Shown here in pieces: positions 40,329 to 43,869 of a stretch of 50,221 bases of DNA (the first letter of the stretch is position 1; the number at the start of each line of letters is the position of its first letter). Source of the DNA: Chloroflexi bacterium OHK40 (GTDB lineage: Bacteria; Chloroflexota; Chloroflexia; Chloroflexales; Chloroflexaceae); NCBI GenBank assembly GCA_004367505.1, contig SFCB01000267.1, positions 1 to 50,221 on the forward strand, given 5' to 3'. Made by a program: the position numbers and the translations under genes. The notes below the pieces were generated by a model. The model did no database searches and was not told the origin of the DNA. It saw nothing but the letters and a program-made list of their open reading frames with translations.

Positions 40329-41306
40329 TTAGCGCACTGCCCCCGATGTGGTCAGGAGCTCCAACGGCAACTCGGCGCCGAAGGCGGCGTGGTAGCGCGC
40401 AGCGAACTCCTGGCGTGTGTAACGGTGCTCCTGGCAGCCGCGCTGCTCGATGGCGTAGGCCGCCGCGAGGGCAGCCACCCGCCCTGTCACCTCCACGGGC
40501 AGATCGCGGGCGATGCCGAAGGCCAGCCCCGCCAGGTAAGCATCCCCGGCGCCCGTCGGGTCCTTCACCTCGCTCACGGGGGCGATAGGGATCTCGGCCG
40601 CGAGGCGGCCCTCGGTGTAGATCAGCGAGCCCTCGGCGCCGCGCGTGACGACGGTCAGCGGGACGGCGGCGATCAACTCGGCCTCGGGGATGCCAAGCTT
40701 GCGGGCCATCATGCCGAACTCATAGTCGTTGCCCACCAGCACCCTGGCCCCGCGCAGGCCGGTGCGAATGTGCTCAGCCTCCAGCCGGGGCGTCTGCTTG
40801 CCTGGATCGAAGATATATGGCACCCCGTGCTGCTGGCACTCCACGGCGAAGCGCTCGATCGCCTCGGGGCTCGTGGGCGAGATCAGCACCAGATCGTCGT
40901 CGCCGAGCCCGCGCTCGGCAAGCGAGCGGGTATGGTCGTGGCCCATGGCACCCGCGTAGAAGGCCACAATCTGGTTGTTGGCCATATCGGTGTTGATGAA
41001 GCACGACGACGTGAACTCGTGCGGGATCACCACGACGCCGCTCGTGTCAACCCCCTGGGCTTCCAGCCAGGCTCGATACTCGCCGAAGTCGTGGCCTGCG
41101 GCCCCAACCAGGAGCGGCCGCTCACCGAGCAGCGCGAGGTTGTAGGCAATATTGCCAGCGACGCCACCGCGCATCTTGCGCATCGAGTCGACCAGGAAGC
41201 TGACGGAGAGCATATGGGCCTTTTCCATCAGCATATGGTCTTTGAAGTAGCCGGGGAAGTCCATGATGTAGTCGAAGGCCAGGGAGCCGGTCACGACGAT
41301 CCGCAC
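40329..41306 (-). CDS. PfkB-family kinase, probably adenosine kinase
   Basis: This 325-residue kinase of the ribokinase/PfkB family has the N-terminal GSLAFDYIMDFPG, glycine motif RGGVAGNIAYNLALLG, the mid-protein LVLISPTSPEAIERF and the anion-hole/catalytic DPTGAGDAYLAGL. Sequences starting like this are usually annotated as adenosine or carbohydrate kinases. Its position between mtnA and ahcY and behind a SAM riboswitch supports adenosine as substrate, since AhcY releases adenosine. GTG at 41306 is used because homology starts there and GGAG lies upstream; a nearby ATG is out of frame. Confidence 0.85.
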   Translation of the reverse strand: MRIVVTGSLAFDYIMDFPGYFKDHMLMEKAHMLSVSFLVDSMRKMRGGVAGNIAYNLALLGERPLLVGAAGHDFGEYRAWLEAQGVDTSGVVVIPHEFTSSCFINTDMANNQIVAFYAGAMGHDHTRSLAERGLGDDDLVLISPTSPEAIERFAVECQQHGVPYIFDPGKQTPRLEAEHIRTGLRGARVLVGNDYEFGMMARKLGIPEAELIAAVPLTVVTRGAEGSLIYTEGRLAAEIPIAPVSEVKDPTGAGDAYLAGLAFGIARDLPVEVTGRVAALAAAYAIEQRGCQEHRYTRQEFAARYHAAFGAELPLELLTTSGAVR

Positions 41307-41372: not shown

Positions 41373-42428
41373 CTAGCGTTGCTCTTTCTCGGGCCGTGGT
41401 TCGCCATCGATCTTGAACATAACCCGTGCCACGGCGGAGACCTCGCGGCACAGGGCGGCAATTTGCCCGGCCTGCTCAGGCGGCAGGTGGCCAAGGTCGC
41501 CGCTGGTGCTAATCAAGGCCAGGGCGCCGATGCGCTCCATGGCCACGCCGCTGGCCGCCGCGAGGTACTCGGCGGTACTCACGAAGCGTCGTGCCAGCGT
41601 CTCGGCTCGCTCTGGCGCCAGCGCGGCCGGATCGTTGGGCACAACCCCCCAGCCGAGCGCCCCACCGCGCCCGAGGTGGTCGGCGACGGCGGCGGCGCTC
41701 TGCACCACGCTGGCGCCGTATTCATAGGCATCGAAGAACACCACCTCGACCGGGAGCGCCAGCAGAGCCGGCCAGTCAGGCGGGCCGGCGATGCACAGCC
41801 CCTTGCTCCCTGGCATCGCGGCCAGCGTGCGCGCCAGCAGGTCGCCGCCGCTCTCCCAGTCCAGCGGGCAGAACGGTGAGCTCAACGCATCGAGGGCTGG
41901 CTCGTCCAGGCAGAGGAGCGGGCTGGCGCCAGCGGCGGCGATCTGGTCGTGGAGCCACTGGGCGCGCAACGCGACAAACTGGCCGATGGCCTCGCGCAGG
42001 GCCGGGTCGTAGGCCAGGGGGCGCTCCTGCTCATCGGTGATCCGCAGGGCCAGACTGATCGGGCCAAGCAGTTCAACCTTGATGGCCCGGGGGCGGCCAG
42101 GCTCAACCTGGCGCAGCTGGTCGGCCAGGGCGGCGTGATGATCGGGCGGCGGTGTGCCAGCGCTACGATCGGCCCGCAGGAAGGCGAGCCCGATCCGGTC
42201 GATCGCCCGCTCCGCAACCAGGCGCTCCACGATGGCCCGCCTGTGCGCAGCGTCGATCACCAGGCCCGGAAAGCCCGCCGCACTCGTCGCGAGGGCCGTA
42301 TCGCGCGGGCCCCGCTGGGCGAGCGCCACGATCGGGCGCGGCGCGGCGGCCCGCGCAGCCTGGGGGCTGAGCTGGGGCGCGCCACCACGGGGTAGCGGGA
42401 GGCAGGCGGGGGTGAACGAAAGCGCCAT
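41373..42428 (-). CDS. MetE/UROD-like barrel protein lacking the zinc site
   Basis: This 351-residue protein resembles the C-terminal (catalytic) barrel of cobalamin-independent methionine synthase and related UROD/MetE-superfamily proteins: IKVELLGPISLALRI, FVALRAQWLHDQIAAAGASP, LCLDEPALDAL and GWGVVPNDPAAL. The methionine synthase zinc ligands are not conserved: the His-x-Cys strand reads LCIAGPPDW (211-219), and the late Cys of the PDCGL-type motif is replaced in ISTSGDLG (306-313). It therefore probably does not transfer methyl groups in the normal way. It lies 33 bases after mtnA under the SAM riboswitch, so a SAM-cycle role is likely but undefined. Confidence 0.72.
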   Translation of the reverse strand: MALSFTPACLPLPRGGAPQLSPQAARAAAPRPIVALAQRGPRDTALATSAAGFPGLVIDAAHRRAIVERLVAERAIDRIGLAFLRADRSAGTPPPDHHAALADQLRQVEPGRPRAIKVELLGPISLALRITDEQERPLAYDPALREAIGQFVALRAQWLHDQIAAAGASPLLCLDEPALDALSSPFCPLDWESGGDLLARTLAAMPGSKGLCIAGPPDWPALLALPVEVVFFDAYEYGASVVQSAAAVADHLGRGGALGWGVVPNDPAALAPERAETLARRFVSTAEYLAAASGVAMERIGALALISTSGDLGHLPPEQAGQIAALCREVSAVARVMFKIDGEPRPEKEQR

Positions 42429-42461: not shown

Positions 42462-43556
42462 TCAGCCTTGCCGGGGCTGGCCCTCGGTGATCACTGCGTT
42501 GCGAAGCCCTTCCGCGAAGGGCGGGTAGATGACTCCGCGCTCGGTGATGATCGCGCTCACCAGTTCATGCGGAGTTACGTCGAAGGCAGGGTGGGCCGCA
42601 GCGACGCCGGCGGGGGCGATCGGCTGGCCGTTCAGGTGCGTCACCTCCTCAGGGGCGCGCTCCTCGATCGGGATCTGCTCACCGCTGGCGAGGCCAAGAT
42701 CGATGGTGGAGGAGGGGGCGGCTACATAGAAGGGGATGCCGTGGGCCCTGGCTAGCACCGCCAGGCTGTAGGTGCCGATCTTGTTGGCAACGTCGCCGTT
42801 GGCGACGATCCGGTCCGCCCCAACGATCACGCAATCCACCTCGCCACGACGCATCATGTAGCCGGCCATGTTATCGGTGATCAGGGTCTGTGGAATCCCG
42901 GCCTCGCGCAGTTCCCAGGCCGTGAGCCGGGCGCCCTGGAGGAAGGGGCGCGTCTCATCAACCAGCACGTGCACGGCGCGGCCCTGGCGATGGGCGGTAC
43001 GGATGGGGGCGAGCGCGGTGCCGTAGCCGGCCGTGGCGAGGCCCCCGGCATTGCAGTGGGTGAGCACCCGCCCGCGCGCCGGGATGAGCGCCGCGCCGTG
43101 CTCGCCAATCGCGTGGCACATCGCGAGATCTTCCGCGATGATGGCGTGGGCCTCCTCCAGCACGCGCGCCGCGATTGCTGCGGTGGTGGGGCTCGTGCCG
43201 GCCTCCACGAAGCGCTCTGTGGCTCGCAGCACTCGTGCCGTGGCCCAGGCCAGGTTCACCGCCGTAGGGCGCTGGGCGTCGAGCAGGGCTTTGGCCTGCG
43301 CCAGCCGCTCCAGCAGGGCGCGTGCCTCTCCGTCGCCACTATCGTTTGCTGCCCCGGCGCGGGCGGCGAGGGCCATACCGTAGGCGGCGGCACAGCCTAT
43401 CGCCGGCGCCCCGCGCACGACCATCGCCTTGATCGCGTGGGCGACGGCCTCAACGTCGGTGCACCGGACGGTGATCTGCTCGTGGGGCAGGCGACGCTGG
43501 TCGATCAGGCCGAGGGCCTCGCCATCCCACCAGACTGTGCGGAGTTCCTCGCTCAT
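42462..43556 (-). CDS. mtnA: S-methyl-5-thioribose-1-phosphate isomerase
   Basis: MtnA (364 residues) converts methylthioribose-1-phosphate to methylthioribulose-1-phosphate in methionine salvage from methylthioadenosine. Family motifs: VRGAPAIGCAAAYGMAL, THCNAGGLATAGYGTALAP with the catalytic cysteine, VDETRPFLQGARLTAWEL and IVGADRIVANGDVANKIGTY with the catalytic aspartate. The rest of the salvage pathway is not in the window. The ATG at 43556 is eight bases from the T-run of the riboswitch terminator, and no strong ribosome binding site is visible. Expression should fall when SAM is plentiful. Confidence 0.95.
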   Translation of the reverse strand: MSEELRTVWWDGEALGLIDQRRLPHEQITVRCTDVEAVAHAIKAMVVRGAPAIGCAAAYGMALAARAGAANDSGDGEARALLERLAQAKALLDAQRPTAVNLAWATARVLRATERFVEAGTSPTTAAIAARVLEEAHAIIAEDLAMCHAIGEHGAALIPARGRVLTHCNAGGLATAGYGTALAPIRTAHRQGRAVHVLVDETRPFLQGARLTAWELREAGIPQTLITDNMAGYMMRRGEVDCVIVGADRIVANGDVANKIGTYSLAVLARAHGIPFYVAAPSSTIDLGLASGEQIPIEERAPEEVTHLNGQPIAPAGVAAAHPAFDVTPHELVSAIITERGVIYPPFAEGLRNAVITEGQPRQG

Positions 43557-43563
43557 CTCACAC

Positions 43564-43590
43564 AAAAGGCCACTCGCATGGCGAGAGGCC
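43564..43590 (-). terminator. SAM-riboswitch expression platform terminator before mtnA
   Basis: On the minus strand GGCC-T-CTCGC pairs with GCGAG-T-GGCC and is followed by TTTT. The 5' arm includes CCTCTC (43588-43583), which is exactly complementary to GAGAGG (43607-43602) that overlaps the 3' strand of riboswitch helix P1. Without SAM this pairing forms an antiterminator; with SAM, P1 holds that strand and the terminator forms. Confidence 0.85.
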
Positions 43591-43604
43591 CCGTCGTCGT
43601 TCCT

Positions 43605-43788
43605 CTCATCTCTCGGCGGGCATGCGCGCCACCGCTGGAATTGGCACCTTTCCGAAGCGAATCACCATCAGCTCAGAGGAAGCAAAATGCCCGTGAGCGG
43701 GCCATTTTGCAGCTCAGGTGGTGGATAGTGCGTTCCTTCAGCGGTTGCCGGGCTTCGTCGGGCCAGTCCCTCAGCCCCTCTTGATGAG
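43605..43788 (-). ncRNA. SAM-I (S-box) riboswitch with expanded P3
   Basis: Read on the minus strand, the element has the S-box order: P1 CTCATC, then AAGAG, GAGGGACTGGCCCGACGAAG, CCCGGCAACC, a P3 arm, GGTGCCAATTCC (43648-43637), a P4 hairpin and GAGAGATGAG closing P1 (43614-43605). All core sequences that contact SAM in this family are present. P3 is about 94 bases (43742-43649) rather than the usual 15-25 and includes a 12-bp hairpin GCAAAATG/CATTTTGC with CCCG/CGGG (43682-43710). With its promoter, antiterminator and terminator it forms a complete OFF switch for mtnA and probably the two genes after it. Confidence 0.92.
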
Positions 43789-43840
43789 TGCTATGGTGCG
43801 TGGTGCAGGCGTTCGTGGCCCGCACTGCGCAATGCGGGCG

Positions 43841-43869
43841 ATTATAGCACGCCTGTCCCCCCGTCGCAA
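43841..43869 (-). promoter_or_regulatory. Promoter of the SAM-riboswitch/mtnA operon
   Basis: On the minus strand TTGCGA (43869-43864), a 17-base spacer and TGCTATAAT (-10 at 43846-43841, with the extended TG) form the best sigma-70-type promoter in the window. Transcription would start near 43834, about 46 bases before riboswitch helix P1. Confidence 0.7.

Follow-up and report, generated by a model that had tools for sequence, protein, structure and literature searches.

A SAM-I riboswitch with a long, structured P3 arm upstream of mtnA in Chloroflexi bacterium OHK40

The mtnA gene cluster and its leader

The window, that is, the whole stretch of 50,221 nucleotides analysed here, carries on its minus strand a SAM-I (S-box) riboswitch followed by three genes. 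The first gene (42462–43556, minus strand, with its ATG start codon at 43556) encodes MtnA, S-methyl-5-thioribose-1-phosphate isomerase, which scored 442 bits against TIGR00512 (cut-off, 279) and also matched PF01008. The second (41373–42428, minus strand) encodes a protein of 351 residues that gave no match in Pfam, NCBIfam or the PDB sequences at the thresholds used; it may be a candidate Chloroflexales MesB homolog, a protein described in passages of PMC7857596 as devoid of catalytic residues. The third (40329–41306, minus strand) encodes a PfkB-family sugar or nucleoside kinase (PF00294, 139 bits), for which no NCBIfam equivalog cut-off was reached. We infer the extent of the operon from the sequence: the riboswitch would control mtnA and, probably, both genes behind it.

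The aptamer was identified by a cmscan search against Rfam 15, in which RF00162 matched positions 43790–43603 of the minus strand (75.4 bits, E = 5.5e-16) over the full model (positions 1–108) and above the gathering score of 44.4 bits. No second Rfam 15 match was obtained at gathering scores in the window, and the search of the own genome recovered the same locus. The first-pass annotation, which had placed a SAM-I riboswitch at 43605–43788 without naming the strand and had reported all S-box core sequences as present, agrees with this result on both points, given that the cmscan alignment contains the conserved core (AAGAGGGGC, GAGGGA, GGCCC, GGCAACC, GGUGCCAAUUCC and GAUGAG). The predicted fold recovers P1, P2, P3 and P4 as a four-way junction, the P2a pseudoknot lying outside the fold model, and the minimum free energy (MFE) of the aptamer is −77 kcal/mol (z = −2.72; equally stable shuffles, 2 of 200).

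A putative promoter, TTGCGA-17-TATAAT, lies upstream (43841–43869, minus strand); it agrees with the consensus at 10 of 12 positions and carries a TG ahead of the second hexamer, 0.1 such sites being expected in shuffles, and is defined by its consensus match alone. Between the aptamer and mtnA we observed an intrinsic terminator stem-loop (43568–43590, minus strand; terminator-like score at 43582–43569, stem read from the letters) with UUUU directly after the stem (43567–43564). The predicted antiterminator (43583–43607, minus strand) pairs GAGAGG (43607–43602), which is the P1 3′ strand plus the next base, with the complementary CCUCUC (43588–43583) of the terminator 5′ arm. When 14 leaders out of the 32 mtnA-cluster loci were aligned, the core and the terminator hairpin were conserved and the P3 arm was unalignable. 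The terminator hairpin was found in all 14 leaders, one of them (L119) without a clear U-run, and the antiterminator strand, GATGAGAGG, was kept in 13, the differing leader being L101. Both the complementarity and its retention in these leaders are consistent with a competition between P1 and the antiterminator.

With a gene of methionine/SAM metabolism downstream, this element is a genuine SAM-I member. SAM binding by it, and the switching itself, are predicted from its sequence; passages of PMC10853860 report that some SAM-I variants bind spermidine. The window riboswitch scores lower (75.4 bits) than members with short arms, which reach up to 99.8 bits, because of the insertion in P3 and of mismatches in P1 and P4, and this is what could be said for a chance match or a decayed riboswitch; with such an E value, an intact core, mtnA downstream and an expression platform common to orthologs, either is vanishingly improbable.

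The closest mtnA relative that we found (L192, JACAEO010000253.1; 79% identity) gave no RF00162 match at the gathering score within 2.6 kb upstream of mtnA. Its riboswitch may have been lost or moved, or the gene may be located elsewhere.

The P3 arm in the window and in the family

The P3 arm of the window comprises 93 nt (43650–43742, minus strand) between GGCAACC (43749–43743) and AGGTGC (from 43649), as compared with 16 nt in the printed Rfam consensus; the length of about 94 bases given in the first-pass annotation was correct to within one base. The MFE of the arm is −35.3 kcal/mol (z = −4.09), and none of 100 dinucleotide shuffles was as stable. The arm is predicted to form one continuous, long, imperfect hairpin. 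The 12-bp hairpin with an A/T-rich lower stem that had been described as an independent element is indeed present (43682–43710, minus strand, with one bulged G); however, it is the tip of this continuous hairpin. Although the GC content of the arm (0.55) is below that of the window (0.68), the same tendency, an arm poorer in GC than its locus, was observed in 43 of 53 long arms, so that the low value of the window arm is usual.

The inner 5-bp stem of the tip followed by ATTTTGC gave a terminator-like score at 43702–43689. Such tips were found in 2 of the 53 long arms, as compared with 1.15 (sd 1.06) in shuffles, and we rejected the tip as a terminator-like signal since this frequency is at chance level. 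A mobile origin was also rejected: the own genome holds no second copy of the arm, the next best match being of 29 nt (E = 0.10). No second known RNA family was detected inside the arm at Rfam gathering scores by cmscan.

Four RF00162 matches (L001, L002, L003 and L004) were obtained in the own genome, with arms of 93, 91, 93 and 90 nt. For arms whose sequences largely differ, this uniformity has a P of about 0.016 among arms of at least 60 nt, in a post hoc test. In the family (41 genomes), 107 matches to RF00162 were listed and 106 were above the cut-off; by hand count, the span was at least 150 nt in 35 of the 106. We fetched 94 of these, the 12 omitted being short (106–108 nt) and from one genus (g3), and the arm could be parsed in 92: it measured from 8 to 116 nt, with a median of 44, and reached at least 60 nt in 35. 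Outside Chloroflexota, we searched 49 genomes that had been reached through mtnA loci with no mention of Chloroflexota in their titles; 18 of them yielded 20 SAM-I matches with spans of 100–149 nt (188 for the window riboswitch). In 11 genomes, that of the window included, TPP riboswitches (18 matches) spanned 100–123 nt and cobalamin riboswitches (24 matches) 140–190 nt; because these spans are ordinary, the elongation appears peculiar to SAM-I among the three classes, with the proviso that the stricter search filters used may miss RF00162, TPP and cobalamin elements with very long insertions.

These arm lengths come from a parse that covered 148 of 151 loci; the three unparsed ones (L033, L083 and L085) are all RF00162 nonetheless. 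It replaced two earlier motif searches, a strict one that recovered 52 rows in 51 of 152 sources and a loose one that misplaced many. A second parse, of contig loci, gave 24 rows from 80 loci, of which 15, with scores up to 5, were credible and nine, with scores of 8–9, were false and excluded.

To assess whether the arms are structured, we compared those of at least 40 nt with shuffles. In this set of 78 arms, which is not random, length having guided the choice of loci from the order's other families, z was below −2 in 67, with a mean of −3.9. A further view of pairing came from seven metY-type leaders, all belonging to one sister family: 92.6% of the arm cells were paired, against 33–50% when the structure was slid. 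In the same leaders, covariation was 0.339, as compared with 0.265 in shuffles (none of 500 as high), and two-sided changes affected 7 of 27 pairs (2 of 500 shuffles as high); the count of further pair types, one of five measures, was no better than in shuffles (200 of 500). Five leaders of another genus showed two two-sided pairs, both within the arm. The cluster names metY, metH and metK are putative, being our reading of the sequences, and the family scan was made for mtnA alone. For the arm of the window, no close ortholog suitable for covariation was found; its genus (g1) was represented by this single genome. We conclude that the arms of this lineage are structured hairpins.

The first description, of a SAM-I riboswitch whose P3 is greatly elongated and structured, therefore stands, but within its own lineage the arm is not exceptional. 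The annotation had named as its own refutation that long arms be common and unstructured in relatives: with long arms in all four own copies and in 35 of 92 family copies they are common, but they are not unstructured, so half of that statement holds.

The sequence of the arm, by contrast with the core, is hardly conserved. A search of the family with the leader gave matches in 30 of 41 genomes as pieces flanking the arm; a single alignment, with one leader (G024:C70), crossed it at 70% identity. In comparisons of the window leader with eight mtnA orthologs, identity was 0.89–0.94 in the 5′ core and 0.68–0.80 in the 3′ part, whereas the arm lay at most 1.5 sd over shuffled sequences in six of the eight and 2–2.5 sd above them in the other two (L109 and L113). 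When compared with the three remaining own-genome arms, the window arm scored 0.63–0.65, against 0.57–0.58 for shuffled sequences (sd 0.03), that is, 2.3–2.7 sd above. One of the six own-genome pairs (L001–L003) fell in the top 2% of the cross-genome scores and two fell below the cross-genome median; a common paralogous origin of the four arms was rejected on this weak and inconsistent similarity. The weak resemblances within the own genome and to L109, L113 and G024 could reflect weak shared ancestry or constraint.

Arm length also changes at the orthologous site. The mtnA-linked arms range from 11 to 116 nt: 11 nt in Chloroflexus, 29 in Candidatus Chloroploca, 44 in Candidatus Oscillochloris fontis, 72 in Chloroflexales ZM16-3, 90 in an uncultured Kouleothrix, and 88 and 116 in uncultured Oscillochloris. 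Among the mtnA leaders, L119 has an arm of 11 nt, and those of L049 and L073 measure 40–43 nt. On a tree of 31 of the 32 mtnA proteins (one was dropped as short), the class of arms of at least 60 nt needs at least eight changes, four of which are forced by well-supported branches, and one sister pair (L113 and L103) has arms of 116 and 50 nt. The arm thus undergoes turnover at the orthologous mtnA site.

Heptamer repeats in the arms of relatives

Autocorrelation of the 53 arms of at least 60 nt, scored against mononucleotide shuffles, revealed a period of seven bases: z exceeded 3 at lag 7 in 19 arms and at lag 14 in 18, and at each of the other lags from 3 to 15 in one arm at most. Because some of these arms belong to near relatives (G246 and G061), they do not represent 19 independent events. 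Many of them are self-complementary, as illustrated by L090, in which GATTGCA is repeated and then followed by its complement; among the 19, GATT recurs with a 7-base spacing in nine and AATG in five. Among the arms with z below 2, the mean z was likewise greatest at lag 7 (0.42, followed by 0.03). The arm of the window is not a heptamer repeat, as its lag-7 z is 0.0; values of 0.8–1.4 were obtained for the three further arms in its genome. Thus, heptamers explain arms of relatives, and perhaps that of the window by descent.

In the one Oscillochloris-like genome sampled for this purpose (G246; 400 kb, L152–L171), heptamer arrays occur genome-wide, often as self-complementary intergenic hairpins. 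We counted 70 arrays at lag 7, as compared with 0–5 at lags 4–6 and 8–12; without the low-complexity filter there were 73, of which 40 had an inverted 12-mer within 80 nt. The commonest units, up to rotation and strand, were GCAGATT, GGGGACA and GAATGTT. In the 342 kb scanned of the own genome there were two lag-7 arrays, both C/T-rich and inside long open frames.

Heptamers are also found in cyanobacterial RNase P RNA. In G412, G405, G000 and G295 (L333, L334, L336 and L337), the RNase P RNA model RF00010 matched no more than its positions 111–207, and its cut-off was reached in none of the 11 genomes, which suggests that the RNase P RNA of these genomes is divergent or interrupted.

Interpretation and relation to known RNAs

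We consider it very likely that methionine salvage is controlled here by a SAM-I OFF switch whose peripheral P3 hairpin remains able to fold but is otherwise unconstrained. When SAM is scarce, GAGAGG of the P1 3′ strand would pair with the terminator 5′ arm and the operon would be read; when SAM is bound, P1 would close, the terminator at 43590–43568 would form, and transcription would stop just ahead of the mtnA start codon. The 93-nt arm would be a peripheral insertion, placed at an end of the aptamer that accepts extra sequence and pointing off the junction, whose sequence and length would drift while the stable hairpin form is retained; we propose that this stable fold prevents the arm from disturbing the folding of the core. 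Neutrality of the window arm is an interpretation of ours, and the uniform 90–93 nt of the own-genome arms is the one thing that it does not explain.

For the suggestion made in the first-pass annotation that the arm is an extra ligand or protein site, one could cite its stability and a length greater than in any of the 20 SAM-I elements outside Chloroflexota. The suggestion found no support, and we regard it as highly improbable: in the ortholog comparisons, no sequence or sub-structure common to the arms marks such a site, the arm of the same gene differs in length between sister species and is reduced to 11 nt in the Chloroflexus mtnA leaders parsed, and cmscan detected no second family within it. 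A role as a transcriptional timer, in which the length of the arm or its ATTTTGC tip would slow or pause RNA polymerase and give the core time for SAM, is conceivable because P3 is transcribed earlier than the last parts of the SAM site, and the four own-genome copies of 90–93 nt as well as the terminator-like score of the tip fit it. Yet terminator-like tips are at chance level among long arms and arm lengths vary widely elsewhere, so that the pausing element that had been suggested earlier also went unsupported, and a timer is, in our opinion, very unlikely. Both an additional binding site and a timing role lack positive evidence, and we prefer to see the arm as a structural extension that is tolerated, a "variable insertion", rather than as a second sensor.

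The origin of the arm is a separate matter. It may descend from a self-complementary heptamer-repeat hairpin like those of relatives, with the periodicity lost by mutation, an idea that we hold only tentatively. It is favoured by the frequency of lag-7 and lag-14 periodicity in long arms, by the residual lag-7 excess among the non-periodic ones, and by the mtnA ortholog of G402 (L095), whose arm is a heptamer array of the same length as that of the window, 93 nt; against it speak the flat lag-7 value of the window arm, the low values of the other own arms and the scarcity and position of lag-7 arrays in the own genome. A broader conjecture, which we judge unlikely as a whole, is that the P3 of Chloroflexales is a niche for slipping heptamer hairpins, comparable to P6b in Nostoc, that the window arm is an old and mutated one, and that its length is a slow setting of co-transcriptional SAM sensing. 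Its starting point, the presence of repeats in relatives' arms, is observed; slippage, the descent of the window arm and an effect on sensing are its conjectural parts.

What the window itself yields is an annotation, methionine salvage under SAM-I control, in which the insertion lowers the covariance score and not the membership. The single element is ordinary, and it is the wider pattern of the lineage that is worth following: within one riboswitch class and one family, P3 lengths span 8–116 nt, whereas in 11 of the genomes the TPP and cobalamin riboswitches are of ordinary length. The arms of 11 to 116 nt at a fixed gene, mtnA, offer a natural length series in which the influence of a peripheral helix on folding and switching could be tested. 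At the level of titles, the open-access literature yielded nothing on long SAM-I P3 arms in Chloroflexota, nor on riboswitches that contain heptamer repeats.

The element resembles SAM-I members of RF00162 in its full-length covariance match, four-way junction, core, downstream methionine-metabolism gene and antiterminator/terminator platform, and differs from them in the length of its P3 insert. According to passages of PMC2258182, long stem-loops without sequence conservation can be accommodated at particular sites in many riboswitches; these are termed "variable insertions". The window arm corresponds to this description, being a nonconserved insertion at a single, fixed aptamer site that forms a stable stem-loop outside the core, although it is still weakly similar to a few other arms. 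In contrast, those passages of the survey do not mention the SAM-I P3 of Chloroflexota, and here the insertion is a habit of the whole family, often built of heptamers in relatives.

The relatives' arms may also represent a further case, in addition to the Nostoc trnL intron, in which heptamers build a peripheral stem of a structured RNA. In passages of PMC4476775, the trnL group I intron of Nostoc is described as having a P6b stem-loop made of 7-nt repeats, TDNGATT or NNTGAGT, over 50–126 nt, and passages of PMC4692102 report heptamers as over-represented in many bacteria. As far as the former passages go, the likeness is that of a peripheral stem of a structured RNA varying in length by heptamer units, here in the riboswitches of relatives, and it extends to the motifs, since L095 and L109 have arms that match TDNGATT, and L140 one that matches NNTGAGT, in each case in tandem. 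The two cases differ in that the RNA and the phylum are not the same, and the window arm, unlike P6b, carries no heptamers.
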